From Linnemannia elongata (lineage: Eukaryota > Mortierellomycota > Mortierellomycetes > Mortierellales > Mortierellaceae), in NCBI GenBank assembly GCA_036320915.1, contig JAXBDG010000016.1, positions 1,178,001-1,242,000 of the forward strand: a stretch of DNA of 64,000 nt, read 5' to 3'. Under the pieces are notes generated by a model. That model was not told where the DNA came from. It made no database searches and saw nothing but the letters and a program-made list of their open reading frames with translations. This document shows positions 5,504 to 34,400 of the stretch, one piece after another; the stretch's first letter is position 1, and each line of letters starts with the position of its first letter. The translations under genes were made by a program, and so were the position numbers.

Positions 5504-8500
5504 ATGGAAATGACAGCGGACGTTCAACCTACCGAGAGCGATGCAACACCGTGCCTTGATACCATAGCAGGAAGCAATCCTGCAGCGACAGCAACATCAA
5601 TTCCAACAATACCAACACCTACCACTTCAACAGCGACCGCAACTACGCCTATTATTGTAAAACGAGGTAGGGGGAGACCTAGAAAGCCCGACACAGGCAC
5701 TTCAACCCCCAACACGTTTGGTACCCCGGACGAAATCACAGGTCACCCTAGTATCTTGCCAAGACGACCAGAAGCAACTACCGGATCCTCATCATCGTCT
5801 CTTCCAGGATCTAACCAGTCTCAACAAAGACCCACAGTAAATCTGAACTCGACCAACTCCACCAACAGACAATGCGAGTCATGTATGACTTTCGGCGCTC
5901 GTCTCTATAAATTTGGCAAGTTGAAGGTCTGCAAGGAGTGTGAGGACCTAATGCGGACCATGACGGGCAGTTCACGGCGGCAGACTGTTGCCCCTCCTAA
6001 CCCTCCTGCTGCTTCGAGTTCAAGTTCTTCGACCTCCACAGTACTGAGGAAGCAAGGACATAGTGTCTCCACTGCCCCTTCACACCAGCATCGTGTTATC
6101 CCTAAAGGTAATAATTACGTCTGTGTTACTGTGACTGAATGCCTTGATATTTTGATATATCGCTTGCCAGTCACCTAATTGATTTACCACTTGGCGAATG
6201 TTATTTAGCTGCAAGCACGTCAAGCAAGCAGGATCATGTCGGGCTCAACACCATCTCCCATTTCTCCACTGTCCCTCACTCGACGTTTGATCCTTCGATT
6301 ACGACTATATCCCCTTCTTCACTGGTTTTGGTTCCGGAGCCCAAACACGTGTCAGTCATCCTGACCAAGCGCGGAGAGATTGCCAAGAAGCGAGGTCGCA
6401 AACCCAAGCCAAGGGACGAGTCTACCAACCTTATCCCTAAGGTTGCACCTATACCAGGTATGCATTTCATACATCGATAATTATTTGCATTGAGTTTTCC
6501 TTTACAAACTTAAAAATTAACCTTTGCAGGTCTCATGGATGTAACCATAGCTTCTCAGCAGCCAGAACAGCCAACAACAAATCCTACCTCGGAACAGGTG
6601 GCGGGCAAGAAGCGAAGCAGGAACCCAACGGCGCTCTACCCTTACAATATCCTCCCAGTCACCGACCCTGCCTCGGTAGTCGTCTTCAAATCCAAATCTG
6701 CGACCTATGTCGAAGCCTCCGTCACAGCAACTCCAGCAGCCTCCATCGCCTTTCCATCACCAATCGACCCTTCTAACTCCTCTTTCTCTCATGACGACAG
6801 GTCCAGTTTCCAGACGACGGGTGCTTTTCTGACCCGTACGGCATCTAAGCTACTGGGCGGTCAGCAAGTGATCGGGGTGGATTCGAATATTCATGGATAT
6901 GCGCATGGTCGACTCGTTAAGGTCCAGAACATTGACAAGACATGGCACTTCGGAGCAATGGTGGGATTGGATCGAGGAAAGATCAAGGTTCATTTTGATG
7001 GCTGGGGGCCAGAGTGGGATGAGTGGATCGCGTCTGATAGTAGGAGACTGAAGGTATTGAATGCGGAGGAAACTACTCTTCGAAACTCGTTGCTTTTGCC
7101 ACCCACACAACCCTCCTCGCAGGCTCCTACTGCTGCTGCTTCTGAAAACCAGCATTTGCAACAGCTGCCTACAGACGACAGCTCGACTCTGCAGGCTGCC
7201 TCGGCCTTACACATGGCCACTCCTCCTCCTCCTCCTCCTCCTACAGTTGCACTGCCGATGAAACCGCCCAAGGTCTTGAAACCGATCGCAGTCAAGCGCA
7301 AGTTGGCGCCCTCGATGGACGATGTTGTTCCCGCGTTGATGGTTGTCGATCCAGACCTCCCGAGACCCTTTGCCAATATGACCAAGAAGCCCAAGACCTC
7401 GGAGGCGCTTGATCAATTCGGCAAGTCACTGTCAAAACCAATGCAACTTATGGCGCCAAAGCCAAAGAAGCCCAAATTGGACAAGTCGCCTTCGATAACC
7501 GCAGTCACGTCCGAGGGAGGAGTCCCGGCAGGAGTCATCACGCCGACTCCGACCACTGCGACAGGAACAGGAGTAGCTTCGACCAGTGGCATATCCATTG
7601 ACTTGAGTTTGCCCAAACCATCGCTCACATCAGCATCCGACAGTCCTACCCCAGTGCTGTCCTGTGCAAACTTGAAGGAGGGTAAACCCAAGGTTACCAA
7701 GGCTACTTCGACCAAGAATGTTCCCAAACCGCCCAAGTTGATCGCCATAGCCCCGAAGGGATCGGCCACAGGAGACTCATCAACAACAGCAATAGAGGCA
7801 ACAAATACAACCGCCGACAAGCCGATCAAGTTGTCACTTGCTGACGCTCGGATACTGTTGATCGGGATCGAGGTCGGAACCAAGGTGCAGGCACAGGACA
7901 AGCGTGGGCAATGGCGGCCATCGACTGTTGTACAGGTCAAGGCTCGGAGGGTGCTAGTCAAATATGATGAATGCCCTAACTTGGCGGATGAGTGGTTCAT
8001 TGCTGACAGCAACCGACTCATTCTCCCTGAGCGGCCACTGATGGGTCCTCTGCATGAGGATAGCCAGATCCGTGCGACTCCAAAGGCCATCCCGACGAAT
8101 GATTTGAAGCGACGAGATTCAGCTTGGTCTCCGCCGATTGACATTGAGTCTAACTCTCCTATTGGCGACCCAGCTACTTGCAGCCGTTCTCCTTCCTCCT
8201 CCAGTTCTCTGAGCACTGCCCAATCGTCCCAGACGTCTTCGCCAAATGCAGCTGACCTCTTTTCCACGAGCAGCGATGACTTGTCCGAGCCTGGATCTAC
8301 AGTATCATTACCTGGTGACCTTACAGACAAGGAACCGGGAAAAGATGACGAGCCGCCACCACCGCCTGTGCCACGGCCTCCTCACACTCTTGGGAACCCG
8401 ATCCTTTTGGACCTTCCTCCTTACGAGATTGTGGCGTTCGAGTTTGAGGATCAGGAGAAGGAGCTCCTGAGGATCATCCATCAAGTGCTGGACACCGGTA

Positions 8501-11500
8501 TGATCAAGAACGCCGTCGTCGAGCTCCCACCAGAAGAGTACATCCCGACTGTGCGGGTCGTCAAGAAGAAAAAGAAGGTTGCAGAGGGTGCCGGTGGCGA
8601 GGGTGCCGCAGAAGGGGAGGATGGCGAGAATGAGGATGACGATGATGGTGAGGTCGAGGTTGAGAAGAAGGTGTCCAAGAGGACCAACGACAAAACCAGG
8701 GAGCGTTTTGAGGCGCTCATGGAGGCTCGCCTGGAAAAGCGGAGCCACCGTCCGTCAATATTCTCGCCAAGGAAGACGCCCAACGTCATCAGGAAGAAGG
8801 ACCCGGATGTCTTGCAGAGGATTCGTGAGGAAGCAAAAAGGAATATGTGCAACATTCCTGTCCTGCGGTACGTTCGACAAGTCATCTACAAAGAGTCGGA
8901 CCGACTGGAGGCCCTGAACAGCAGCTTTGAGCGTCAGAAGCAAAAGTTTGCTAGGGCAATGTCGAATCGGGCTAGCGCCAGTAACAGGATGAAGATCAAG
9001 CGGACATCGGGGCCGCTGTCGAGGAGAATTTTTGGGCTGTCGAACCCGAACCTGACAGGAATCACATTCAACGAGGCAGGATACATCGAGTCCGCAAATA
9101 TTCCTAAGCCAGTCGTTGTCCCCTCACCCGAGGCGCTCAAGAGGCTGAAGAAGATGCAGAAAAAGAAGGAGCGGCTGATGAAGAAGAAGGCGATGGAGAA
9201 CCCGAACCAGGATCTGGTACCGGATACAACCGTTGACGATACCTTCCAGAACCTCCGCAGTCTAACGCGCGACAACAAGAAGCGGATGCGGCCGCTGAAG
9301 GAGGATCATATTACCTTCCTAAGGCGGACGATGGTTACAGGAACCCGAATCCGGTCTAGGGATCGGCAGATGGAGTGGTTGACGGCCGTAATCCGAGATG
9401 TGAAGAACAGTCGTGTTTTGGTCCATTATGAGGGATTCGCAGAGTTCTTCAACGAGTGGATCGATATCAACAGTGAGCGGCTCAAGTTTGATCCCACCAT
9501 GGAGCAGTACCCAGTTCCTCTCGAGGGAGTTCTTGCCCCAACTGTCGCCACTGCGGTTGTGGTGACACCGGTCCCTCAAGTTGAAACGATGAGTTTGGCA
9601 CCGGTCCCGGCAGAGACGAGTGAAGTGGTGGCTGCGACCGAGGTGGTTGAGTCCAACTTTGAGGCCATCTCGGACAACGTTCAGCATGAAGAAGGCGGAA
9701 AGGAGGTCAACTGTGTCCAATGCCAAGTCAAGATCAGCCAGTTCCGGTACGTTCGATGATGGAAGTTGCTACCTTATTGCATGAGTAAGGCAAATAACTA
9801 ACTTCAGCTACGTTTTTATGTCTAGGATCTACTGCATGTATTGTGAGGTCGAGTCCAAGGTAGAAGGATCAGAACGGAAACCATTCAACATCTGTCTCTG
9901 GTGCTTCTCGAACGCCTACCCAGACCACCATGATCACCCCCGCTCCTCCTTCGCCACAAAGGTCATCGTCGGCCCCCGAGGAGTCCGCCCTGTCAAAGGC
10001 GGTATTATCACCCGGTTCGAAAAAGACCTCATGGATCTCGAATACAAGGAACCTGACCGTCCCGAGACTGCTCTCGTCCCCGACCTCCACTTCCAAGCCA
10101 TGATGGGTCTCGAAAGCGACCAAGGATTCTTGTACCTCGACCAGCAGTGGAAGGAAAGGAAGGTTTGCGCGTTCTGTAATGATGATGGGACGAGTAAGGA
10201 TTTTTTTATTGGGCCGCAGCCGTTTTTGTTGGCTTCGACAAATCGGTATGGTGATACAAAGAAACGTAACTTTTGGGCGCATGATGCTTGTGCGAGGCAT
10301 TCGCCGGAAGTTATCCAGGCCAAGGATGGGAGCTGGTATAATGTTTCCATGGCCATGCGTCGTGGGCGTACTGTGGTATGTATTCCAGATCTTTTTTTTT
10401 TTTTTTTTTTTTTTTTTTTCTTTCTTTTGCCAATTAGTCTACGCGACGACCAATTCCTTAAGTATTGATCGCTAACTCACCATTCAATTTTTGGCATATT
10501 TTTAGAAATGTACTGGATGCAGGGAGAAGGGAGCGACGATCGGCTGCTTTGACCCAAAGTGCGGACGCAGCTTCCATGTCCCTTGCACCGGCAAACCCAT
10601 GTCGCACTTTGAAGACGGTGTCATCTTTTGGTGCCCCCAACACGAACGCGCTCTCATGCAAAGAGGTACAAATGATTTTCGCTTGCATTTTGTGGCTGAA
10701 AATGTTAATGTTGTTTGCTCCACACACTAACATTACACCTCTTCACCTTAACGTAGATGCCTATGATGATACTTTCAGCTGCGATCGATGCTCCAAGATT
10801 CTGGGAGTCAACCCTTGGCATACTTGTAGCAAGTGTAGCGAGGACTACTTCCATACCTTTGACCTTTGTCGCGAGGTAAATCATTTTTCTCTTCAGCAAC
10901 CCTTGTTTTACACGATAGATGGACAACTTTCTGACTATCCCCCGACTGGATTGTTTGTTGTTTAGTGCTTCTCTAAGGACGACATCAATCATGAGCACGA
11001 CAAGGACGATTTCAATGTGACATGTAAGTACAGGCGCTAATTGACAAGCCGTGCATATCTCGGTTTTCTCATTATCTTCCCGTATATGGTCCCACTTTTA
11101 ACGACCTCATTTTCCCCTGAACAATAGCACTGGAACATATGTACAAAGAGCAAATGGAAAAGGAAGCTGCGGCCGCACAGGCGATCGAGGCCGAAGAATA
11201 CGCGCCTGTCAAAAAGAAAATGCCCGCCTACAAGGCCAAGATGCGAGGGCTGTCTCGACTTGTTTGCTCGTACTGCTGGTCCGGAACATCCGCCAAATGG
11301 CGAAAAGGTAACCCCTTCAACGACAATGATATTTACTGCCTTTAACAACATGTCTGTGTCTAACTCTTACTCGATGTATGGCTATGTGGCATAGGATACA
11401 ACGGCGTGCTCATGTGTGAGGACTGTTTCTTGGCGGGACCAGTCAACGACATCCCCATGCAACCGCCCATGGACATGGAGACATTGGCCGACGGTGTTGG

Positions 11501-14345
11501 ATCCGTTCCACTCTCGTCAGTTTCCTTGTTGGCGGCACAGGAGGAGTACAGTCGGGGTGTTGGCACATACGCGACGTCAGCTGAAGACTATTCTCATAGT
11601 CCTTACTTGACGCGTACTGCGGTGTCTGCCGTTCGGTTTGATCATTCGTCGTCGCAGGCGGTGTATTTGGATTCGTATGGTCCCGCGGAGAACCAACTGT
11701 TTTCGTTGCCGATCGATACCACCTATTATGATATCCCTGGACGCGCGCCACGATGTAAGTGATGATTGAGGTATTGATAAAGTTTCCTATGTTGTTCGAT
11801 CTGTTGATCATGATCTGACACTGCAATTGTGCTGTGTTGAATTAGGGGCTACGCATTCGGGAACGGATTACCATGGCACTTGGCTCCCACAGACTGTTCG
11901 AAGGTAACCACATCTCAGCTTTTGCTGTTTCCTCTGAATTATTTCCTCTAAAAGGACCGAGGTGCACAGATTCTAACTTTCGCCCTCAACTACTGTAGGG
12001 CTTTAACAAAGTTCACGAACCCGAATGACAAGATCCTCTCCAACTTTTTGGGGCGCGGCACTGATGCTATTGAGTGCTTCCTTCTTGGACGATGGTAAGA
12101 CCAAGGGGAGATATTTGGTTTTATGTTGTTATTCCTGAGAAGCTTGATCGTGAACGAGAAAGATACTAACATACGCAACACTTTGTTTATCTTGCTATCG
12201 TAGCTGCACTGCTGTGGATATCAACCCTGTAAGTTAACACATGTTTTTGTTCCCGCTCAACCCGAAAGCTACCTTCCGCCTTTCTTCTCTTCTTAAGTCT
12301 CAATTTTAACTGTTACCAAATCAACCCTTTTTTTCTAGGCGGCGGTGACACTTTCGATCAGGAACTGCTCGTTCGCCATCCCTCAGGACGGATCGATCAA
12401 AGCCGAACATCGCCCAACAATCCTCCAAGGCGATTCTCGGCGGCTCACAGGACCCCTCTTCGAAAGCGAAACCTTCGACCACGTCCTCTCCCACCCACCC
12501 TACAAAGACTGCGTCGCCTACTCTACCCACATCGATGGTGATCTCTCCCGTTTTGGCAACGCGCTTGAGTTCCAACGCGAGATGCGCTCCGTTGTCCGCG
12601 AAACCTACCGTCTCCTCAAAATGGGCCGTCGGTGCACTTTGGGCATAGGTGACAACCGTGAGCATTGCTTTTATATCCCGGTATCATTCCAGTTGATCCG
12701 ACAGTATATCAATGAGGGGTTTGAGTTGGAGGAGTTGATTGTGAAGCGGCAGCGGTACTGTGCGATGTTTGGGTTGGGGACTTATTTATGTGTCCAGTTT
12801 GATTTCTTGTGTTTCACGCATGAATTTATTGCGACGCTGAGGAAGGTGCCGAAGGAGGAGATTGATACCATGATTCTCGAGCCAGGTACGTGTTTTTTGA
12901 CATTTTACAACTATGTGTGCGCTATATGGATGTTGAGATGTGTTGGAATCTTCGTGCATGCCTCTGACATTTTTTTTGCCGTTTGCTTGCCCTTGATGGA
13001 TGGATGTAGACTACGCGGTGCTGGATGATGTTGTGATCACGAGTACAGTGAGGGCGATCCCAAGCTGCCCTGTCGAGCGCAAGAGTGTGGTAATGGGCTC
13101 CGTTTGGACATTCAAGCCAACCGAGGAGTACGACTTTCCCACGCTCTGCGTTTCCCGAATGGTAAGAACCGCCAGCTCCTAGATTGTCTTGCCAAAAATG
13201 TCCCACCTTCCCAATGGAAGACACGATAATTAACATTTCTTTTGTTGTGCTTACTAGGTGGAGAGGTTCGGAAGAAACGATGCCAACTGGGAAGAGTACA
13301 AGCTGAGTTTCAAGGTGGATAACCCGGATGATACAAAGTCTGAGCAGTGGACTGAACATGCGGTGGAGATCTTGCCACCCGAGGAAGATGATCTTGTCTC
13401 TTATGAACGTGACCGCCTTCAGCAGATCCAGGAAAACAATCGCATGCTTCTTGCCCTTGTAAGAACTTGTAGTAGCTATATGCATGACATGACTAGAGCT
13501 GAAGGGTGCTGCCGGTAATATTTCGATTACTAACACCCTACAAATTTTTCATGGACATACAGGGCTTGATCACGGATCTGAGCGAAACGTCCGATGACTT
13601 GGGGCATCAGACAAAGATCTCAAAAGACGCACCCTGCTACCCACCCCCCGCACAAACAACCCTCCGCCTCATCGCCCATATCCCATGCACTATCCTCAAA
13701 GCTCACCAAATCACGGCCTACCGGACCACAATTATGCATTTGGCAAAGCAGGCACTGGATCAATTACCAGTGAGCGGTATCTTTATTGTTGGTGCGCAAG
13801 ATATTAGGACGGAGAGTGGCAAGTTGTATCCGTTGGGGATGCTAATCATGGAGGATGTTATTAGAGCCGTTGGGGAGGATTGTCTCAAGTTGAAGGAGCT
13901 CAGTAAGTCGATTTTCTTGAAGATCTGCTGGCGCTCTTTTTTTTTTTTTGTCTGAAGGTGCGCCCACTGATAAACTTTTTTTTTATAATTTGACGAAAAT
14001 AGTCGAGGCAGTGCCAGATGGTTACCAGAAGGACAGACGCAAGATCACGAATTGGGGCGAGTTCAAAGAAGAACCCCGGTCGCCTGGTGAAGGAATTCCG
14101 ACCCACCATTTGCCTATTGTCCATGTAAGTCACAAGGCCCCTTCCGTTCTCTTTCTTTGGCTGTCGCTCTGTTGGCTAGAAAAAAGAAAAAAAAAAACAT
14201 AATTGGTAGCTGTAACTGACGGTTGTGTTTTTTTTTGAAACAATGATAGGCATGCTACTTGGTATTCACAAAGGTCAAAGAGAGGGTCATGCCAGCTCAG
14301 GGAATAACCCCTCGTGCCGAGAATGAGACTGTGTTGGCTGAATAG
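5504..14345 (+). CDS. Chromatin-reader / amino-DNA-methyltransferase fusion protein
   Basis: Eighteen exons (5504-6107, 6209-6457, 6530-9746, 9826-10375, 10506-10665, 10757-10875, 10966-11023, 11128-11307, 11395-11754, 11846-11903, 11999-12094, 12204-12228, 12339-12885, 13010-13161, 13258-13458, 13563-13902, 14003-14124, 14250-14345) join in one frame of 2377 codons. In order: AT-hook KRGRGRPRKP (about 53); GATA-like finger C-x2-C-x15-C-x2-C (124-146); second AT-hook KKRGRKPKPR (about 262); three Tudor-like repeats (about 407-462, 727-782, 1221-1272) each with a DEW or NEWI core; ZZ-like finger (about 1346-1400); extended PHD finger (about 1466-1593); second ZZ-like finger (about 1600-1652); GATA-like finger C-x2-C-x17-C-x2-C (1699-1723); methyltransferase domain with motif I FLGRGT (1868-1873), motif II AVDINP (1887-1892), catalytic SHPPY (1943-1947) and the GDNR...YIP strand. 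Probable nuclear role: reading histone and DNA marks and methylating DNA on adenine N6 or cytosine N4. The base methylated cannot be told from sequence. Confidence 0.8.
13563..14345 (+). other. C-terminal second methyltransferase-like half
   Basis: This is the 3' part of the fusion gene above. After the SHPPY-bearing domain, residues about 2193-2377 contain IFIVGAQDIR, then KLYPLG, then a helix (MLIMEDVIRAVG), and finally LPIVHACYLVFTK. The order mimics the late strand-helix unit of the first methyltransferase domain (CTLGIGDNRE, YIPVSFQLI). No motif I (FxGxGT) or PPY motif precedes it. It may be a degenerate second methyltransferase half or a target-recognition segment. Confidence 0.45.
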
Positions 14346-14516: not shown

Positions 14517-15393
14517 CAATATACACTAGTGTTCAAACTGCCCCAATGATTGGACATTATAACTCTCCCGATCACCATGCACTCCAGGACAGAGGTAGTG
14601 CCTTTTTTTTGCATTCAATAACCCTACCAATGTTGTGCGCAGGTACCAAGTTTGGAGTGTCAATATTGTGTTATCGTTGTGTAAAAAAAAAACAAAAAAG
14701 GTAATCATTGGGGGAGTTTTGCACCCTACGATTTATTCATATGAACAAGAAAAAGCTTGCATGGTTTAGCACGGTGGACAACCTTTTTTTTAAAAAACCA
14801 TGCCTTACTTCTTGCTCAAAGACAGAATCCGAGAGTTAAATAATGGAGAGGACAAGTGTGTCCTCTCATGTCCTTAGTTTCAGGTGATTAGGAGCCCTAG
14901 AGAAGGCTTAATCGCTAAATTAAGGCAGTAGTCTGCATTATACCTATGAACCTTCTATATTCTGACGAAATACTATAGACCACGCCTTCTCTAGGGCTCC
15001 TAATCACCTGAAATTAAGGACATGAGAGGACACACTTGTCCTCTCCATTATTTAACTCTCGGATTCTGTCTTTGAGCAAGAAGTAAGGCATGGTTTTTTA
15101 AAAAAAAGGTTGTCCACCGTGCTAAACCATGCAAGCTTAGTCTTGTTCATATGAATAAATCGTAGGGTGCAAAACTGCCCCAATGATTACCTTTTTTTTG
15201 TTTTTTTATTACACAACGATAACACAATATTGACACTCCAAACTTGGTACCTGTGCACAACACTGATAGGGCTATTGAATACAAAAAAAAAGGCGCTACT
15301 TTTGTTCTGGAGTGCATAGTGATCAGAAAGTTATAAAGTTGCAAGTTTCAATCATTGGGGTAGTTTTGAACCCTGGTGTATCATTACTTGGAT
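14517..15393. repeat. Large foldback (inverted-repeat) element, about 0.87 kb
   Basis: The left arm (about 14530-14918) returns as its near-perfect reverse complement (about 14990-15385), with a spacer of only about 70 bases around 14920-14990. The outer ends read CACTAGTGTTCAAACTGCCCC and, inverted, CACCAGGGTTCAAAACTACCCC. Each is flanked by TA, consistent with a Tc1/mariner-type TA duplication. The subterminal motif AATCATTGGGGNAGTTTTG recurs inside each arm (near 14705 and 15165). No protein is encoded, so it is probably a non-autonomous DNA transposon. It lies just downstream of the stop of the methyltransferase-fusion gene. Confidence 0.85.
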
Positions 15394-19459: not shown

Positions 19460-22400
19460 CTACGACAATGCCAACAACTCGGCCAAATTCTCCTGCAGCA
19501 CCCGAAGCTCCTCCTCCACCAACGCCCTCGCCGGACTGATAGCGTTCGAAGGCACGTAATCCTCATCATTCTCATCATCGTCTTGGGCTTCCAACATCTC
19601 CAACCGCCTCAACTCCTCCCTCTGAGCCAAAATCTCACCCTCAATATACTTGAGAACACTCGACTTGTTCTTTGTAATAAACTTGTCGCAATGCTCCTTC
19701 ACATTCCCCGCCTGGTTTCTCTCAGCATGGGACCGGATGTTGAAAACATTGCTGTGTATGACCTTTTGACCAATGACGAGCTCTTGCGCAATCAGCTCCT
19801 TGAGTCGCGTTGCCTCGAACCGGTTGGCGACGTCTTGGAGCTCCATCAGGTATTGGACTCGTTCTGACAACCTTTCCTCATGGGCCGGACCACCTTCTCC
19901 CTCACTTTCTGTTCCTCGATCAACCTCATTCTCAAAAAGTGGTGGCCCATTGCTCAGAATCAGAGTATCCGAATAAAAGTAATATAACAGTCCCCAGAAC
20001 CCCTTCTTAATATCCCCATAACTCGACAAATCAATCACATGCACCCCGGGATCCTCAGGATCCCTGGTCAAATTCGAAGCCCAAACCCCCGTGAACCGCC
20101 TAAAGAAATACTCACTCGCCCTCGCCAATACGACCTTGTGCGCCACGATATCCGAGCCCACTTGGAACTTGAACCGAATATCCATGAACCCCGTGTGCTG
20201 ATCCTGGGTCTCGAAACAGTTCTGGATCTGATCCTCCATATCGCCCCGCTTGCGCCCGTCCGTCACATCAATAGACCCCTCGACATGCTGCATCTGCTCC
20301 GCTCCGAGGGCAACCAAAAACGTTCGATACCGGTGCAAGAACTTGTCGACGACTTGATATGACGAGATGTTCTGGTCAATGTCGAACATGAGATTCGCCG
20401 GCCAGACCCAAGAAGTAGCCTCGCTTGGATCCTTGTCACTCCCGTTCAGGATGTACGGCGTCTTCATATGAGTTGACATCTTCGATGTCCACATTCGTAA
20501 TTCGTCGCTCATCGCGGCCCAGCTCTCGAATTTCTCGTAAATCCGGATGAGGTGGAGCTTGAAGAGTTGTTGCCGCTCTGCCGTTTTACATGATGGAGCG
20601 ATGCGCTTGACGAGAATGTTCAGATGCTGGTAGGTTTCCGACAAATTGAGATTGTCCACCTTGGTGAACTTGCTCCTGAAGGCATGAGAAGGTACCAGGT
20701 CAGCTGGAAAGAATCCTCGAAGCGTCCATAGGAGGTCCCGGTTCTGAGGATTGGCGAGCTCAGAGAAGGCCATATACTTGGGCAGGTCGGGTGCCATCAA
20801 ATCATACGGCGGCACTAGGTTGGTCTCTCGTGGTACAAACTTCCACTTGGCGTCCATCCAGTTGACCCCACCGGCCTCTGGATTCTCGTAGATATACCTC
20901 ACCAACTGAACAGCCCGCGCCCGTGTAGTTTCTAGAGCGGCTCTTGTATCCAACGTCTCCGCCAGGATCTTTTCCGCACATTCCACAACCAAGGCAGGAT
21001 GGCTGCCCAAAGTGCGGAGACTTGATTTCATGCCATAGCGCAACATGCTATCCGTCATCTCCTTGTCGCCAAAGAAAGCTGCATGATCCGCAAATACAGA
21101 CTCCGTCAGTCCCTCACCAGGAAGAGCCAGAATGCCTTGCCCATGGAACGATCCATCCCTAGCCACATAGCACCGTGTAGTCCTCAAGACTTCCTGTGGG
21201 GCTACCGCGACACGTCCTCGAAGTGTACTAACGTGAAACAGGTTCAACAACAGACTGAGGTAGGCGGTCCTGAGGCTGCCCTCGCACTTGAGCACTCCAC
21301 TGTGGAACTTGGGGAGGACAAAGTCTGTTATGGCAACGGCGATCCTAAGTGGCGTGGCTCCGATCAGCTTGAGGTTTTGAACGTCGTCCGAGTCCGAGCA
21401 AATGACCATCGGGAACGCTCCAAAGCCTCGCAAGGCGAAGTGACCTTCTAGATAGTAAGCTCCACTGGCAGCGATCAACGGAGAGACATCCATAGATCCT
21501 TGGGTCGTCCAGATCGGAAGGTGGCCAATACTGTGAAGCAAAGTCACCCTGATCTTGCCATGGAGGCCTAAAACGAGTTTTCGCATCTCCTCAGCCTCCA
21601 TCCTGCTGAATGCTCGAAGCGTTGGCAACGCGTTCCAGTGAGTGACGATGGCCTCAAGAAGTCGAAGATCAGAATACTTTGGGCACTTGTTCTTGAAATA
21701 CTGGTGGTCTTTGTGCGCTGCCGACTCAAAAACCACAACGCCGATATCTCGAAGCAGATCCATGAGCACGATAAACTTCTGACACGTCTCATATGGGAGT
21801 CCTGAGATCTGAAAGCCAGTTAGCGCCTTATCGAGTGTCGTCATGGTGCCATAAGAGGTCTTGAGAATCGGAAATTCAAAGAACGTCTCAAGGCTCTGGT
21901 GCTCCTCGGCGATGTAGTCCCAGAGCTGCGTCAGCTGCGTATCCGTTACTCCACCAGGGTTCTCCTCGAGAAATCTTGCCGCGAAGGTGTCAGGCGGGAG
22001 CCATCCAATGTTGTACTTGTCGCCTTCAATCAAAAGATTTAGAGCACGACGAAGCTCATCGGTGCTGAAGACGTGGGCACCGACCAGAATATCCTCCGCG
22101 TCGAGAAGGTTATGTTCATGCGTCGTTAGAACATAGTACTCCTTCTTCCCTTCCCTGAGTCGCATCCACTCCCCATTGTGCAACGGTATGATTTGAAGAT
22201 CGTTCGATGTCACCGAAAATCGCACCTTCGGGTTCAAGACAGGCTGGAACGCCCATCCCAAGATCCACTCTCTCTCGGCACGGGTCTTCATGTTGTTCTT
22301 GATGTAGTCTGGAGTCTCCAGAAGGCTCTTCCGAATAAAGTCTCCATCGACCTGCTTGTACGACAACTTTGGTTCCCTACTCCATTCTGTCTTGATGGCC

Positions 22401-25400
22401 GACATGACGGGACCTGGAACAATACTGACGGCTCGGGTTCCTTTGCATACCCACGAAAGGACCTTTGACTCCAGCTCTGGAGGGATAGTAACAGGCCCAG
22501 GTAGGATGGCGTCCTGTCCTGCTTTCAACTGCATAGGCAACTCCGTTAGGGGACCGAGGCAAGCAAACACTGGAGAGCTGTAGGCGCGGCGCAAGAACGC
22601 CTTGAGGAATGGTTGAAACTCCTTTGTAGTTTTAACGGGCCAGCGATCAAAATAGGCCTTGTTGGCCTTGTTGAAGTCGTGGCGGCTGCGGTGCAAGTTC
22701 GTCGGGTGTGCAAAAACGATTGCAAAAAGATGTTCCATGGCGCGGATAGCGGTGTCTGGTAAACATGTCTCGATAAGAAACGAGTTCCAAATACGCTTCT
22801 CGTTCTCCTCCTCGCTGCCCCCGGCCAGGTTCTTGCGGTTCGACGTTAGGGCAAAATCTCCATGAATGTGGAAGGGCAACTCGGTCAGAATGGGGGTGGG
22901 AAGGTGGACAAAGAGTTTGTTATGAGAATCCGATCGGTGTGTTTCCTGGATCTGGATCGCGACTCCACGATGTGGGCTCCAGTGTCTCCTGGCCGCAAGT
23001 TGTTGGACATGATCAGGGGTACTAGAAGGGAAGGCATCATCACAACAGACTAGCCACAGCGAGTCCGCTGCAGTTTCAGACGCTGAAGCAGCGGGGGAGA
23101 CCTCGATCTCTACAATGGAGCCTGGAGGACCAAATGTACCGTTAGAAGACTTGAGAAGGTCACTCTTGACCGACTCCGACTTTGTCACTGTCACCTCCGA
23201 GATCCGGATAGTCTTGACGTTCTTCAGGAACAACATCCCGACTTTGGCATCTGCAACCCACCCATCCATCATCTTCTGAATTTGCCCCACCGTCCACTCA
23301 ACGCCTCCAAACCCTGATTTAGAAACAGCAGCAGTGGTCGATTCGTCTGTCACTCCAACCTCCGACGCAGGGGGATCGGTGGGGTTTATCCTCAAAGGAA
23401 TCCTGAATAGCGTGCCCTTGAAATGTGACCTCATATCGCAGCCAAGAATCCCCCTGTATGGCGCCAATTGATCTGCCAGCGTGTCCATGCTCAGCTTCCG
23501 GAAATCGCACCGATGGCCACCCTTGGCGATGGGAGCTCCGCTGCGATCTCTGCTTTTGGGAAGGTTGGTCATGTGAGGGTCGAAGAAGCCGATGTAGGGT
23601 CCGCTGACGATGCTCGGTACATCGGTGAAATGGTAGACAGAGTTGAAGCCCAGTCCATGACGCCCAATCTTGGAGGTATCCTCCCCTAATATATCGTCAA
23701 TATGCTTGTTAGAACGGAAACCCGAATAAAAACATTGCCTCATCTGAAAAAGAATGACAAGGTGGACAACAACTTACTCTTGTTGCCGACTCCAAGTCTA
23801 CAGAGGGCATCAAAATCCTTGTCGGAAAACTCGGCATCATTGTAGATCATCAATGCTGGACCTTGCCATGCAGCCATCTGCGTGCTGAGCACCGTCTTCG
23901 TGCCATACGACCGAGAGTCCAACCAGAACCGACACTCGGTCGCCCCGGCATCAGACGCGTTCTGCAAAAACTCGTTAAAGATGCTCGAAGGATCATAATC
24001 GTTCAAAATGCCCTTGATGCGATCTACGATGTTCTCTTGCTGAAAGAATGGGTCGAACGAGTTGTCTTTGGTATCCTCCCAGCAACGCACCGAGAACATG
24101 GTGATTTGGAGTCGGTCTGCCGTATCGTACGAGATCTTGCGATGTACGAACGTATAAGGCAGATCTCCTGCGCCGAGGTCGCCCTGCCGGACGTTCACGT
24201 CGTCATAGACAACATCTGCTGCCCGCTTTAGAGTCTCGTCCTCGGTGAGAACGAGAAGATCCGCCGACCAGGTCGGGTTGTCGACGTCGGCGATTGCATT
24301 GAGGAGGCGGCAGACCAGACTCGCGTCTGTGACTGAAATAGGTTCGTTAGCCTCGTATTTGGATCCAACGGAGGCGAGAATACCCTCGATATCCTCCTGC
24401 CGAATCTGCTCCCGCACACCAAGGGCCAGATAGAAGTCATCCAGACCCGAGGCGGGAACTTGAAGAAAATGCGGCTGCAGGTCACAATGCATCTTGAGCG
24501 CGACTCGATCGACCGTATAGAACTCTCCAGAGACTAGGACCCAGGCCTGGTCCTGTAATTCCGACCTGATGACCTTGAGCGACTCAGGCTCCTTGATCTT
24601 TTCGGCAAGGTGCTGGTATATTGTCATCACGTCCAAGCTGTTGAGGGCCTTCTGTCGCCGCTTTGTAACATCTGAGGTGGCACCTGTGCTCTCGCTGTCC
24701 TGGGGCTTGTATTTACTGGCAATCGAGCACAGATTTTGAAGCACGGTTTCCAATGGCGGCGGTGAATTCCATCCAACACAGTCAACCAGGGCCTCATTCG
24801 TGAAGGCGAACGCGGCGAGCGGCATGCAGTTTCCAACCAACACACGATCGCTCTGGGGTCGACATTCCGCTGATTTGCGCCATCCACCATCAGGTCCAGT
24901 ATACACCCATCGCACAGTTGTCAAGACCTTGATGAGATCCGGTGAAAGAAAGGCCTTAGAGCATTCAGTATTCAGTCGACCATACAGCGCCTCCACAATC
25001 CTCCGGTTCTCCTCCATCTCCAAGTCTCTAGAGCCAAATAACGTCTTGATGCGTTCCTGAACAAACGCTGCATCAAACGTTGAGTGCATCCCCAATTCCG
25101 ACAAGATCCCAAACAAAGGAGCCTCTCCATAAACTCCTGCCGGGAAAACAGCATCCGTGTCCGGAAAGAAAACGGCGAGACTCGGGTGAACCATCGACTC
25201 TGGCCTCAGACGGCGTGTGGGTAAAGGTTTGGTGCTATCCGCTTCTGACTCCGATGTCGGATTTGTTGAAGCGAAAGGGAGGCTGTGAATGAGCGACCGC
25301 AGGCCAGTCCCACTGTTGTCAGTCGATTTGGGTGCCGTGGTTGTCGAAACAAAGGGCATGCTACGGAGGGCTGAAGCCAGGTCGAAGGCTTTACTGTGGA

Positions 25401-28400
25401 CGTGGTACACAGGTGCCAGCTTGGTCATGATCGCATCCCACTCGCTCTCGTCCTGTTTGGTAAGGTTGGAGACTAGTTGGTGCCAATACTCGGCCTCTGT
25501 GAGCACAGGAACGCTCAACAAGTTGACAAGATGCTCTTTCAGAGGCTGGTCATCTGCTAGGAGGTCAATCGATGGTGGCAGCCAAGGGTATTCCTGGTTG
25601 TCATATCCTTGTGCGAGTCTCCATTGCTTGGCGGTCATTGTCATGGGTGACGACGACGGCATGTTTGCTGCATCCAAGGGCTCCAGCTTGCCGCTGCTGT
25701 ACAGTTTGTAAACCGGGAGGCGCTTCAGAACGCGTCGTCGCTCATCCGTGATCTTGGTCGTCGTCTGTAACACCTCTGCCAAATAACTTGCCAGATCCGC
25801 CCGGTCCGTCTGTGATACTCTGACGAGTTGGTCGGCCTTGGTCACGGATAGCAGGTCCAGAATTCCAGTGACGTCTAAGATATCGGCAACAAACGGTCGA
25901 AGGGATGCGGTTGGTAGAAACCATGACCTCAAAACGTTACAGCCGAGATGCTGCTCCAAGACCGTGCATGCCCTCTGCATGACGCCGACATTGCCCAAGG
26001 ATACCCTGTTGAGATAAATGGCGCGTTGCTTAGTCGACAATGGCGCCAGTTGCCCTTGACCCACAGGAAGCAAGTGGACCTTATTCAGCCCTGAGAGTAA
26101 CTCTTTGCAGTTATCGAGCTCGTGTGCCATATCCCAAAAGTCCATAAGCCATTCGTCTGTCGGGAAGCGATCTGGCGCCTGAGAGATACATCCAGCTGGG
26201 ACGGTGCCATCCTGATAGCAAGACTGTTGAAAAGACCAGCGAACCCGTTTGGCGATTGATGAGGGCGACATTGGGATCCAGAACTTGGTATCTTTGGAGA
26301 CGATGTTGATCTGATGGAAAGGAAAGCCGTCTACATTCAGATCTACCAATCCCGCGTTCGCCTGTGAGAGAGTCTCAAACACGAGGCGGGGCACATAGCA
26401 CCTATAGCATCGCATTCAACGTAAATATTAGTGCTACTTCACTTTTGCATCATTTATGGCGGTCATGGTAAATTGACAACTGCTTACCTCTCTTTAGCCT
26501 TGCTTTGGGCAAAATCGACCCAAATGCCTCCATCTAGAGGAAGCAGGGGGAGGCCTTCTAGATCGGCGACATTGTTGTCGAGAAGGCAGTACTGGATCAT
26601 CTCAATGCGCGTCGAAGAATCAGCGGTTAGCGACCACTGTTCCTTGTTGTCAAAGAGGATCTCCCTAACATGCGCAGGGGTGAGGATAACTTGATCAAGT
26701 TCAAGTAGGGGAATAAGGGAGGCGATCTCTCCAAGGATGACATTGGGAATTCCCTCCGCAAGGTTTACAATTGAGTGAAGCGACTCCTTAAGTAGCGGGT
26801 ACTGGTCAATGTCGCGTCCTGCAATGTAAAGTGTCGAGTACTGGCGGATATAGCAGTTGTCCTTGGCTTTGGAACCACAAACAAAGACCTTGCGATCCTG
26901 AGAGAGAGCAGCCCGGAGAACATCCTTGAGCAGGTCCTTCCAGATTGCATCCAGTCCAATTCCTTCACCGCAAGAGGTTGGCCACAAGCCATAGTCGGTT
27001 CCATGGTCCAGACCCACATCCTCCAGGAACATGGCATAGACCTCCGGGACCTGCTTCTCGAAAAGATGGACGTTCCAAAGTGACTTGATGTTAGCTGAGG
27101 CCTGGCTCGAAAAGTCGTTGTCCTGGTTGGTCCAGATCTCGCGTCGGCTCTGCTTGACGGCAAAATGTCCATTGATGTGAACAGGGAACGGCAGTTGGAT
27201 TCCGATGGGTAGGAAACAAAAGAGACGAGAGACGTCGATCTTGACATCAGGGTCCGTTGGTGCTGCGATACCCACCCAGGGGATCAATTTGTGATCGTTG
27301 ATGTTTCCGTCTGTCCGCACCAGCATGTACTCTCGTGATTTGAGCACATTGCCGACCAGTGTACTGATGTGCCATGCTTCTTCTGATGTAGAGCCGTCCT
27401 CGTGGGTGATCCTGTAAGTCGGTCTCACGGAGTAGTTTAGAATATCCTCATGGCTTGCTGACTGGTCTGGATAGACGTGGGTCCTGAGGCTGCTGAGAAG
27501 GTTGAGCCGCTCCTTCCTGACCTCCACTGCGTTGACAATCTCAATCTGGAACAGCATTGTTGGCTTGTCCTGGTTGTGCTTGCGCTCGTAAATGGCAATC
27601 TTTTCCACATGCTTCAAAAACAACAGGGCTTTCAACGCTTCATCCTTCAACTTGACCAACATATCTAGCACCTATCACATTAATGTGAAAATTGACTTTT
27701 AAATAATTGCGCTCTTTGTTACATGCGAAAGCGATGGCGGAGAAGTACCTATAAAACCTTGCTGTTACCTTTTCAGGGGTATATGCATAGTTGGAGATCT
27801 TTGAGTCCTTTGCCTGCTCGCTTGTCCTGAGTGGGAACCGAAAGATAGTTCCAGGGTAGGGCTTTGAAAAGTCGATATCCTCCAGTACCGAGAATGTCCT
27901 GAGTTGGTCTGGAAAGTCGCTGACTCCTCGGTAGTCGTCGACAAAGTTGCCTAGTACGGCTCCCTCTTTGAAGTCTGACTTCTTGCCATTGAAGATACGT
28001 TCGTGGGGCTCAATCACCATTAACTTGTCTCCTGTGATGAAGGATGGGCAGTCTGTCAAATGATAGATGCTATAGACCATAATGAAAAGAGGAAGCATAA
28101 GCCAATTGCAACTCCTACAACTACTTCGATGACAATAACCAATGCGGAGGAAACACGGAATGCGTACCTGTTGAACCCAATGCCCATCTGTCCAATTTTG
28201 GACTCATCCTTTCGTTTCTTGCTTGCAGCCAAACTCTTCAACGAATCAAAGTCTTCCTTCTCAAAGATTGAATCACTTCCAGCAAGAAGAGCCGGCCCCA
28301 TGTATTCCTGGAGGTCGTCATGGAAGAGTCGCAGCTGAGACGACTCAGTGCCGCTCGCTGTGTCTGATGCCTGCTTGTTGTAATTATGATGGTCGAGGAG

Positions 28401-31404: not shown

Positions 31405-34400
31405 TTAGTACCTCGGCAAGTCGTCGCTCAAGACCAAAGTGGTCAGAGTCGCGTTGGTCTTAAGTGCTTCGAACAGCGCCTGAGCTCCACTGGGTCTCAT
31501 CGGGTTGTGTTCCAAGTTCAGAGTGGTCAGAGTCGAGTTGGCATAGATCATCTCAGATAGTGCCTGAGCTCCATTGAATCCGATATCGTTGTTCCGCAGG
31601 CTCAAAGTGGTCAGAGTCGAGTTGATCTTGAGTGCCTTGGACAGTGCCCGAGCTCCATTGTCTCCGATCGAGTTGTCCCTCAGGGCCAAAGTGGTCAGAG
31701 TCGAGTTGGTCTTAAGTGCCTTAGACAGCGCCTGAGCTCCATTGGGTCCGATCAAGTTGTATTCCAAGTTCAAAGTGGTCAGAGTCGAGTTGGCTTGGAC
31801 TGCCTCAGAGAGTGCCTGAGCTCCATTGAATCCGATCTGGTTGCTCCGCAGGCTCAAGGTGGTCAGGGTCGAGTTGGCCATGAGTGCCTCGGAGAGTGCT
31901 TGAGCTCCATAACCTTCAATGGAGTTGCTCTCCAAGTCCAAAGTGGTCAGAGTCGAGTTGGTCTTGAGTGCCTCAGAAAGCGCCTGAGCTCCGTTGGGTC
32001 CGATCGAGTTGTACTCCAAGTTCAGAGTGGTCAGAGTCGAGTTGTTCTTGAGTACCTCAGACAACGCCTGAGCTCCAATGACTCCGATTGAGCTGCCCCA
32101 CAAGTTCAGAGTGGTCAGAGTCGAGTTGGTCTTGAGTGCCTCAAATAGTGACTGTGCTCCATCGAATCCGATCTCGTTGCTCCGCAGACTCAAGGTGGTC
32201 AGAGTCGAGTTGGTCATGAGTGCCTCGGAAAGTGCCTGAGCTCCATGGCTTCCAATCGAGTTGCTCTCCAAGTCCAAAGTGGTCAGAGTCGTGTTGGCCT
32301 TGAGTGCTTCAGACAATGCACGAGCTCCATCGGGTCCGATCTCATTGTTGTGCAAGATCAAAGTGGTCAGAGCCGGGTTGGTCTCGAGTGCCTCAGACAG
32401 CGCCTGTGCTCCTTCACGTTGGATCAAGTTGTTCCCCAAGTCCAAAGTGGCGAGAGTCGAGTTAGTCTTGAGTACCTCAGACAGCGCCTGTGCTCCTTCA
32501 CGTTGGAGCAAGTTGTTCCCCAAGTCCAAAGTGGTGAGAGTCGAGTTGGTCTTGAGTGCCTCAGACAGCGCCTGTGCTCCTCTACGCCGAACCAAGTTGT
32601 TGTGCAAGTTCAAAGTGGCCAGAGTCGAGTTTTCCTTGATCGCCTTAGCCAGCGTCTGAGCTTCGTCGTCTTGAAGCAAAGCATGTTGAGAGCGCACAAC
32701 ATTCACTTCAGCAGGCGGGAAGAAAATCAAGAGGGTAGAGCAACAGAATGAAAAGGAAGTAAAAAAGTATTCTCGCATTTACCATGCACATCCAACGCCA
32801 GCGACTTAAAGCCCTTCAGTGGCATGCCGATATGGTGATGGATATACAGAGCCATCGCTTGATTAATTCGTAGGTTCTTCCGGTACTGGATATCGACTTG
32901 GGACGGGCTAGCCTCGGCTGACTTGAACTCAGAGTTGTTGAGTTCTAGACATCCACACCTGCATTGCAAGTCAAGTTTTCGTCCATAACGTGCTTCGCCT
33001 AAGTCCAGTGCGAACTCTTCCTGCATCAAAACGCGCTGCCATCTCGTGGCTTTGGAAGCAAGCTCGCCGCTTTTACAGATCAGATAGTCAAAGGCAATTA
33101 GGACTTTCCGCGGAAATCGTGGCTTTCAAAGAAGCAGCAGGACAACTAATTAGACAAGTAAACAAGCAGACAACTAGACAACAAGACAACAACTTACGAT
33201 CGAAGTTCCAACTTGTGGTCGCACATCGTCTGAATAAGATACTTTCAGATTTCCACCGTCTTAGCTTCACTCATTTTCTTCGTCGGTCCCATGATGGCGC
33301 TAGCATCGGAGAACAAAAAATCCTGATGTCAATAAACACAAATCAGATGTTACAGGCATTAACCTGTTCACTAGCACAATATCTTACATGTGACGGATGG
33401 CGTCCAAAATGCTTCGCTTAAATTCGTCAGAAGGCTCGCCTTTGCTCCTGAGGATCGCCTCCTGACCAATGCCAATCTCGACAGCATTCAACAAGCCCTT
33501 CACTTTGCCTTTTTTATACGCACTCCGTAGCGGCTCAAGAATTTGCTGCAGCTGCGCAGATGGGGTGGCAATCCCTTCTAAGAAGCATTTCGACCGAGCA
33601 CGGTCGATGAGCTGTTGGCCAAAGATTTCGAGCGAACCTTCCATCCGAGCATTGACAATCCCCGACATGGCAACACTAGCAATCAAACAAGATAGATATG
33701 AAAGACAAACAAAGAAAGTATGAAGGGGCGCGGTTAAGTTATACAGAAAGAGTACCATCTAACCGATGTCTTCCAATGGGTGAAGCTTACAAGAGGTCTT
33801 TCTCGTCCAATTTCGTCAGCTGCTCTTCGCTGTTGATCTTCGCCATGATAAAGTGGAACAGCTTCGCATGGGCTCCGTTAAGATGGCTTGGCCACTCGGC
33901 ATCTAAACATGCGTGTTCATCGCCCCGGACCTATGTGATGGTGCGAGTTAAGTTGGTTAGTGGATTGTTTGGTTGTCCTGAGGCGTTGTCAACTAAGTAA
34001 TTGACACTAACCTTAGCCATAACCTGATCAACGAGCGTTCTCCATGGCTCAGCTATAGGTGAAGCTCGAAGCTTCCGATGCGATACTGGTGACTTTTTGT
34101 TGCCTCTAAAAGAGGATGATTTCGCTTCTGCCGGAGTCGTCGGTTCAGAAGCAGGGCATGAGCCGGCATCGGTACTAAGAATGCTGCTCTCTGATGCTGC
34201 TCTCTTTCGTCCTGACCTTGTCGCAGTTACAGAAGTCTCCATCTATACCCATAGTTCATTATGGATGATCTGTTAGTGTATAGTGGTTAATAACAAACTG
34301 GAATGATGCAAGCGGAACAAGAATGCACACCTCACTTGAGATCTTAGTCTCCTGTCTCGCTGCAGAGATCGGCGCTTCAGGTGTGGCAACTGGAACTGCC

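Follow-up and report, generated by a model that had tools for sequence, protein, structure and literature searches.

A putative chromatin-reading protein with a restriction-modification-type amino-methyltransferase core in Linnemannia elongata

Gene model and domain organization

A 64,000-nucleotide stretch of the Linnemannia elongata genome (assembly GCA_036320915.1, contig JAXBDG010000016.1, forward-strand positions 1,178,001 to 1,242,000; hereafter the window) carries, at positions 5504-14345 of its forward strand, a gene that joins putative chromatin-reader domains to a methyltransferase core. A single protein of 2377 residues is encoded by 18 exons that keep one reading frame, without an internal stop, as far as the stop at 14345. 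The 17 introns are all of the GT-AG type and have a mean length of 100 nt. A public Linnemannia elongata protein (P0001; F5H01DRAFT_75159, 2370 aa) was identical to the window protein at 2370/2370 residues; the sole difference was the presence in the window protein of seven extra residues (285-291) at the start of exon 3, where an alternative acceptor is used. As P0001 possibly comes from the same genome, it supports the exon chain but not the DNA. The reading-frame check and this identity bore out the exon chain and protein length proposed in an earlier, sequence-only reading. Two candidate acceptors for exon 3 lie seven codons apart (window 6530-6550), and the present model and the public annotation choose differently between them. 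When the methyltransferase core was used as query against the whole genome (51.1 Mb, 32 contigs), this locus alone was matched, indicating a single-copy gene.

The coordinates of the gene and its domains are collected in Table 1. In a Pfam search with the whole protein, PF01555 (N6_N4_Mtase) scored 40.1 bits against a curated cut-off of 26.7, and this family was also matched by 11/11 fungal cores (E up to 0.1). The top match of the window core was PDLC03376, the PADLOC model for Type II restriction-modification methyltransferases (E 1.1e-35), with core residues 4-232 aligned to positions 29-248 of the 249 in the profile; this model likewise matched 11/11 fungal cores, with a best E of 8.8e-44. 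Chance resemblance is excluded because the motifs are conserved across 121 aligned sequences, namely the window protein and 120 homologues. The methyltransferase domain with FLGRGT, AVDINP and SHPPY that had been proposed from the sequence therefore stands. FLGRGT (residue 1868) and DINP (1889) precede SHPPY (1943), and GIGDNR follows, an order of the I-II-III-IV type; the core is thus not circularly permuted. PF01555, a profile of permuted enzymes, matched in two stretches, residues 1939-2111, which include motif IV, aligning to the profile start. MT-A70 (PF05063) was absent among Pfam matches up to E 1, the core motif being HPPY and not DPPW, and PF02384 (N6_Mtase) gave no match in the protein (Pfam up to E 1) or in the fungal cores (E up to 0.1).

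Histone-reader domains share the chain with this core. The extended PHD module exceeded its cut-off (PF13771, 37.5 bits against 29.1), in agreement with its earlier assignment, which as a profile-based prediction is firm. On the whole protein MBT scored 38.6 bits (cut-off 22), so that the three Tudor/MBT-like repeats appear sound as a set, although two of the three fell below cut-off singly and each is marginal individually. Other proposed readers fared less evenly. Both ZZ-like fingers have consistent spacing but scored below the Pfam cut-offs; of two proposed GATA-like fingers, the C-terminal one has consistent spacing and a PF00320 score below cut-off, whereas the N-terminal one matched no family; and of two proposed AT-hooks, residues 54-62 are canonical, judged by what we take to be the AT-hook core motif, whereas residues 261-271 are merely similar. 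Spacing patterns for the extended PHD were found in 107 of the 120 homologues, for at least one ZZ finger in 117, for two ZZ fingers in 95, for the GATA-like finger in 110 and for HPPY in 116, with extended PHD, ZZ, GATA-like and HPPY patterns all present in 94/120. The patterns were modelled on the window's own spacing, and the counts thus show sharing rather than independent discovery.

Table 1. Position of the gene and of its predicted domains and motifs in the window
Feature	Window position	Strand	Basis
Whole gene, exons 1-6	5504-6107, 6209-6457, 6530-9746, 9826-10375, 10506-10665, 10757-10875	+	18-exon model
Whole gene, exons 7-12	10966-11023, 11128-11307, 11395-11754, 11846-11903, 11999-12094, 12204-12228	+	18-exon model
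Whole gene, exons 13-18	12339-12885, 13010-13161, 13258-13458, 13563-13902, 14003-14124, 14250-14345	+	18-exon model
AT-hook, residues 54-62 (RGRGRPRKP)	5663..5689	+	Canonical sequence
N-terminal CX2C...CX2C knuckle, residues 124-146 (first GATA finger of the sequence-only reading)	5873..5941	+	No Pfam family matched
AT-hook-like stretch, weaker, residues 261-271	6385..6417	+	Similar only, non-canonical
Tudor/MBT-like repeat 1, residues 410-465	6904..7071	+	MSL3_chromo-like 18.7 and MBT 15.9 bits, both below cut-off
Tudor/MBT-like repeat 2, residues 728-793	7858..8055	+	Chromo_MORC2 25.4 (cut-off 27), MBT 22.1 (cut-off 22), Agenet 20.0 (cut-off 27) bits
Tudor/MBT-like repeat 3, residues 1208-1275	9298..9501	+	MBT 18.8 and Tudor_4 13.7 bits, below cut-off
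ZZ-like finger 1, residues 1346-1394, intron inside	9712..9937	+	ZZ_ADA2 22.4 bits (cut-off 27.5); spacing fits
Extended PHD module, residues 1471-1586, intron inside	10166..10643	+	PF13771 37.5 bits (cut-off 29.1) at 1509-1586; PF13832 28.7 (cut-off 27) at 1503-1570
ZZ-like finger 2, residues 1602-1644, intron inside	10780..10998	+	ZZ_ADA2 19.9 and ZZ 17.4 bits, below cut-off; spacing fits
GATA-like finger, residues 1699-1723, intron inside	11265..11426	+	PF00320 20.9 bits (cut-off 26.8); loose spacing pattern in 110/120 homologues
Methyltransferase core, residues 1829-2072, introns inside	11742..12878	+	PF01555 and PDLC03376 profiles, alignments
Motif I FLGRGT, residues 1868-1873	12045..12062	+	114/121 aligned sequences
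Motif II DINP, residues 1889-1892	12217..12228	+	DIN in 118/121, 3 gaps
Motif IV SHPPY, residues 1943-1947	12489..12503	+	LSHPPY in 117/121, other 4 gaps
GIGDNR motif, residues 1994-1999	12642..12659	+	120/121, remaining one a gap
C-terminal domain, first part (SVWTF...MVERFG), residues 2091-2140	13057..13302	+	By-eye likeness to TTVWIFP...RY of bacterial two-domain relatives; outside the HHalign alignment
Degenerate second methyltransferase half, residues 2228-2363, introns inside	13668..14300	+	HIP in place of core HPPY; HHalign to bacterial C-terminal domain

Prokaryotic relatives and distribution in fungi

Homologues were collected in three protein searches, from which the best 120 of 149, 120 of 164 and 72 of 72 matches were listed; proteins of ~1050-1300 residues were thinly covered. 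Among the best 120 of 164, most prokaryote-like matches aligned over 91-98% of the core with 31-40% identity, and the names given to archaeal and bacterial relatives included 'DNA methyltransferase', 'site-specific DNA-methyltransferase' and 'TRM11 family'. The neighbourhoods of the 80 bacterial loci nearest to query P0199 were surveyed over four open reading frames (ORFs). Both a DpnII gene and a D12/Dam gene were present at 57/80 loci, DpnII alone at 4, D12 alone at 13 and neither at 6, several of these last being truncated by contig ends. At one example locus the Pfam matches were DpnII (E 7e-109) and MethyltransfD12 (E 6.6e-63), while two others contained an Mrr-type nuclease and a PD-(D/E)XK nuclease; the DpnII-locus gene of L042 matched PDLC03376 with E 1.4e-146. 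As the relatives are restriction-modification enzymes, the ancestral substrate of the subfamily was likely DNA. The DpnII-locus methyltransferases of Clostridia and other bacteria (PDLC03376, PF01555) are collinear by eye with the fungal core, sharing RG.WATH..Y.GNW.P...R, FxGxGT, D.N, HPPY, GD.R and HE. They differ in being proteins of ~250 residues that lack readers and lie near DpnII/Dam genes, whereas the fungal form is part of a 2377-residue, 18-exon chromatin protein. No DpnII/Dam-type neighbour was recognised by eye, without a profile scan, among the ORFs of at least 220 aa in the window. The PDLC03376 match, the DpnII-locus relatives and the lack of MT-A70 and PF02384 matches upheld the proposal of a prokaryote-type amino-methyltransferase that is distinct from MT-A70 and joined to chromatin readers.

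At ten of the loci with a Dam-type gene and no DpnII (L003, L018, L036, L044, L057, L062, L070, L071, L074 and L077), a gene of 173-194 aa directly preceded the methyltransferase gene. In L071, the only one of the ten scanned, this type of gene matched a PD-(D/E)XK nuclease family, which may mean that one endonuclease partner has replaced another.

The region that follows the fungal core also has bacterial counterparts. An added C-terminal domain is carried by 14 prokaryote-type proteins of 467-528 residues (P0262, P0266-P0278), two of which bear bacterial names (P0276, Ignavibacterium sp.; P0266, 'bacterium'). In HHalign comparisons the fungal and bacterial C-terminal domains aligned with E 1.6e-13 (probability 98, 96 columns), and the fungal core aligned to the core of the two-domain bacterial proteins with E 4e-62. 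The bacterial C-terminal domain itself resembled the bacterial core (E 9.9e-13), and in P0266 it matched the second half of the methyltransferase profile (E 3.8e-10). The fungal C-terminal domain aligned to the bacterial core with E 9.7e-5 (probability 58) and to the fungal core with E 0.013 (probability 3). These alignments make a decayed half-methyltransferase, already present in bacteria, the best reading of the tail. Its occurrence in both fungi and bacterial relatives indicates that a two-domain bacterial enzyme was probably captured. The bacterial 'DNA methyltransferase' of ~510 residues likewise consists of a core and a degenerate C-terminal half-methyltransferase; its N-terminal extension is helix-turn-helix-like by eye, where the fungal protein has eukaryotic readers.

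In the phylum that contains Brachyspira, 12/392 genomes were matched at E 1e-40, two over the full length and one to residue 381. Three such loci were inspected: one lies amid Type IIG and Type I restriction-modification genes and two have no such neighbours by eye. In the first of these (L181, 4973-14556) the two-domain relative is complete and sits within a Type IIG/Type I restriction-modification island. A second, broken relative lies nearby on the same contig (L181, 3855-4499).

Mobile carriers were also searched. The fungal alignment (A1) gave 13 and 44 pattern matches in scans of the viral and prokaryote collections, with 0 confirmed. With the prokaryotic alignment (A2) the same collections gave at least 581 confirmed genome stretches, of which 80 were kept, and 84 viral stretches, of which 80 were kept (79 loci). 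The viral scans revealed no copy carried by a virus that was close to the fungal form, and leave a viral origin unsupported. Plasmid (54) and phage (13) records yielded partial relatives only, with less than 60% identity and none covering 80% of the query.

The protein searches listed homologues in Mortierellomycota, Glomeromycotina, Mucoromycotina, Kickxellomycotina, Zoopagomycotina and Entomophthoromycotina, as well as in chytrids (Spizellomyces, Geranomyces, Borealophlyctis) and Rozellomycota (Paramicrosporidium). P0242 and P0084 are the homologues in Phycomyces and Mucor lusitanicus. The lineages of Paramicrosporidium, Spizellomyces and L. elongata (Mortierellomycota) were looked up; the remaining group names are those to which we take the species to belong. 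Among the matches listed there was no named eukaryote outside Fungi and no member of Dikarya, though metagenome rows could be other eukaryotes. The cores of ten diverse fungi were 63-75% identical to the window core, which is high for so deep a divergence.

A tree was built by a quick search from 126 rows, for which 32 of the 145 eukaryote-like cut domains and every one of the 94 prokaryote-like ones were used; P0020 and P0263 were lost at domain cutting. The 32 eukaryote-labelled rows, made up of 22 named fungi and 10 metagenome rows labelled by sequence, fell on one side of a branch with an SH-like approximate likelihood ratio (SH-aLRT) of 100. Many inner forks were weak, the branch to prokaryotes was long and the prokaryotic sister group was unresolved. 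Related fungi tended to cluster, as expected from vertical descent, and the tree fits one eukaryotic origin. The enzyme had been described from the sequence as captured by a fungus. The capture is retained here, though not as one fungus's own event: it appears ancient and common to early-diverging fungi. We infer both its direction and its date. A two-domain bacterial enzyme of restriction-modification type would have entered an early fungus or an ancestor of the fungi and become fused to readers there, and the fusion would then have passed by vertical descent through the early-diverging fungi.

Substrate, target base and proposed mode of action

Taken together, the protein is probably a histone- and DNA-guided DNA amino-methyltransferase, encoded by a single-copy gene and bound to chromatin; we infer DNA as its substrate, the target base, the reader specificities and the chromatin guidance. 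The role of a maintenance or targeting enzyme for 6mA or 4mC (N6-methyladenine or N4-methylcytosine), put forward in the sequence-only reading, is likewise a hypothesis. Judged by domain type, the Tudor/MBT-like repeats, ZZ fingers and extended PHD would read histone tails and dock the protein on marked nucleosomes, while the AT-hook and the GATA-like finger would contact DNA. The core would bind S-adenosylmethionine via FLGRGT/DINP, flip the base and methylate its exocyclic amino group at SHPPY. The decayed C-terminal half-domain would be a non-catalytic partner, probably stabilising the fold or holding DNA.

Methylation of adenine at N6 is more likely than that of cytosine at N4, since Dam-type enzymes and DpnII are encoded at the same loci as the bacterial genes. 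At the pneumococcal DpnII locus, as described in PMC3573125, both methylases protect against cleavage at GATC, one on double-stranded DNA and one (DpnA) on single-stranded DNA. By analogy this suggests adenine, DpnA being a possible member of the present family. Two observations weigh against a large role in 6mA. In Mucor, deletion of metB is reported to remove 70-75% of 6mA and deletion of mta1 all symmetric sites (PMC11258239), which leaves little 6mA for the candidate enzyme there. A wide survey describes robust 6mA only with AMT1 (PMC12695648), which also speaks against a large 6mA role. The fold search ranked tRNA N2-methylguanosine (m2G) enzymes first, with Trm11 best and TrmN and Trm14 near. 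The residual Mucor 6mA may be the product of the candidate enzyme or noise; alternatively, the activity of the enzyme may be confined to a small number of loci or to other stages, or be directed at cytosine.

The last of these possibilities is a sub-case of a DNA amino-methyltransferase, and its odds overlap with it: the enzyme would write 4mC, like the rotifer enzyme N4CMT, in a 4mC system that surveys of 6mA and 5-methylcytosine would have left unrecorded. PF01555 spans both specificities, either of which is described as having evolved repeatedly in the domain (PMC8885841), known writers account for most Mucor 6mA, and 4mC goes unmentioned in the available text of a 2026 fungal review (PMC13297926). 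The proximity of Dam-type N6-adenine methyltransferases and DpnII to bacterial relatives at 57/80 loci, together with the guarding of GATC by both pneumococcal methylases (PMC3573125), argues in the other direction, and we regard a 4mC writer as possible but rather unlikely.

The fold ranking raises the alternative that the substrate is RNA or protein, for instance that a Trm11-like N2-guanosine or other RNA methyltransferase acts on chromatin, perhaps co-transcriptionally. A close relative of the DpnII-linked enzymes gave the same ranking, with tRNA m2G enzymes first, which indicates that the fold cannot decide the substrate; it was mainly the methyltransferase core that drove the matches in these searches, and none of the best 50 fold matches listed for either the window core or the bacterial relative bore the title of a DNA methyltransferase. 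In searches of PDB sequences, the tRNA methyltransferase 5e71 came first with a single sequence, whereas with the fungal-core profile the putative modification methylase 2zie (E 7.1e-7) ranked above 5e71 (E 1e-4). Families of RNA and protein methyltransferases also gave profile matches, though weaker ones, and 'TRM11 family' labels occur in NCBI, but the best profiles were DNA or restriction-modification models. Trm11, TrmN and Trm14 typically carry a THUMP domain; none was found among Pfam matches up to E 1, and the genome context of the bacterial relatives differs from that of these tRNA enzymes. With the fold search neutral, the best profiles and the genome context favour DNA; a firm placement among RNA or protein enzymes, which would have refuted the sequence-only reading, was not obtained, and an RNA or protein substrate is improbable.

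Still less probable is that the domain has no catalytic activity and serves as a DNA-binding reader retained for structure. The C-terminal half-domain is decayed, and HPPY is what we take to be an unusual motif IV. However, the motifs are conserved (LSHPPY in 117/121 with 4 gaps, FLGRGT in 114/121, GIGDNR in 120/121), and HPPY also occurs in the bacterial relatives within restriction-modification loci. A gene-model or assembly artefact, in which two genes or bacterial DNA were wrongly fused, is hardly credible: the exon chain is a predicted model and P0001 may share its genome, but the public annotation agrees at 2370/2370 residues, introns interrupt the methyltransferase coding region and the same fusion was found again in other fungal phyla, a recurrence that makes an assembly chimera very unlikely.

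Comparison with known systems and other features of the window

Known eukaryotic amino-methyltransferases resemble the fungal protein in part. Bdelloid rotifer N4CMT, as described in PMC8885841, is also a PF01555 amino-methyltransferase that a eukaryote captured from bacteria and that became joined to a histone reader. It is circularly permuted, has one chromodomain and is known from bdelloids only, whereas the fungal protein is non-permuted, has many putative readers and occurs in several early fungal phyla; the capture of N4CMT is dated to >60 Mya in the abstract of that paper and to 40-60 Mya in its text. The parallel drawn in the sequence-only reading thus holds for capture and reader fusion and fails for the permuted type, and the motif order rules out a permuted N4CMT orthologue. 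MetB, the asymmetric 6mA writer of Mucor, is likewise a bacterial restriction-type methyltransferase gained anciently by fungi (PMC11258239). It is described there as a PF02384, MmeI-like enzyme with a target-recognition domain, and readers go unmentioned in the available text; the window protein had no PF02384 match, which rules out a MetB orthologue. PF02384 was not found in the L. elongata genome either, in an exon-wise search that can miss it. The MT-A70 enzymes AMT1/Mta1 and Mta9 write 6mA in related fungi, and their pairing of an active and a degenerate member is loosely parallel; they have PF05063 and DPPW, neither of which is present in the window protein. MT-A70 matches were found at three separate places in the genome (contigs C30, C12 and C31), so that the usual 6mA enzymes are probably also present.

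Early-diverging fungi are noted for high 6mA, and Mondo is cited as having found 44 Pfam domains that differ between them and Dikarya (PMC8298701). In the available text of the 2026 review, Mta1/Mta9 and MetB are the only 6mA writers named for these fungi, and PF01555 and 4mC are absent (PMC13297926); the rotifer study, in the text available, holds its PF01555 enzyme to have no eukaryotic homologues (PMC8885841). A reader-fused PF01555 family in early-diverging fungi was not found in the literature searched, though Iyer and colleagues or Mondo 2017 may already list the domain, and the HPPY motif returned unrelated papers only. The principle is already known from N4CMT (PMC8885841) and the capture of MetB (PMC11258239), from which, as described there, the fungal family differs in architecture and either in profile or in motif order. 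On balance we favour the view that this family is a third writer of DNA amino-methylation in fungi, guided by chromatin and independent of MT-A70 and MetB. A whole two-domain restriction-modification enzyme would have been captured no later than the root of the sampled fungi. With its core highly conserved, the enzyme would have been kept in chytrids, Rozellomycota, zygomycetes and arbuscular mycorrhizal fungi; it was probably lost in Dikarya, and it would place 6mA or 4mC according to histone marks. If true, this would be an older and far wider case of a restriction-modification enzyme turned histone-guided epigenetic writer. Two questions would become directly testable, namely by what means the state of histones might direct the amino-methylation of DNA and whether fungi have 4mC, and Mucor is a genus in which deletions of 6mA writers have already been made.

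About 535 bp past the gene lies an element resembling a miniature inverted-repeat transposable element (window 14880-15011, at least 132 bp, with outer edges possibly beyond these). It has perfect terminal inverted repeats of at least 28 bases (14880-14907 against 14984-15011) and at least five copies in the genome, with 89-100% identity. Further along, on the reverse strand, long open frames of 1437, 891 and 395 aa at window 19460-27671 translate into what are, by eye, sacsin-like pieces with a BTB-like tail, and at 31405-32778, also on the reverse strand, leucine-rich repeats of the NLR/RNH1 type, extending over 457 aa, were recognised by eye.

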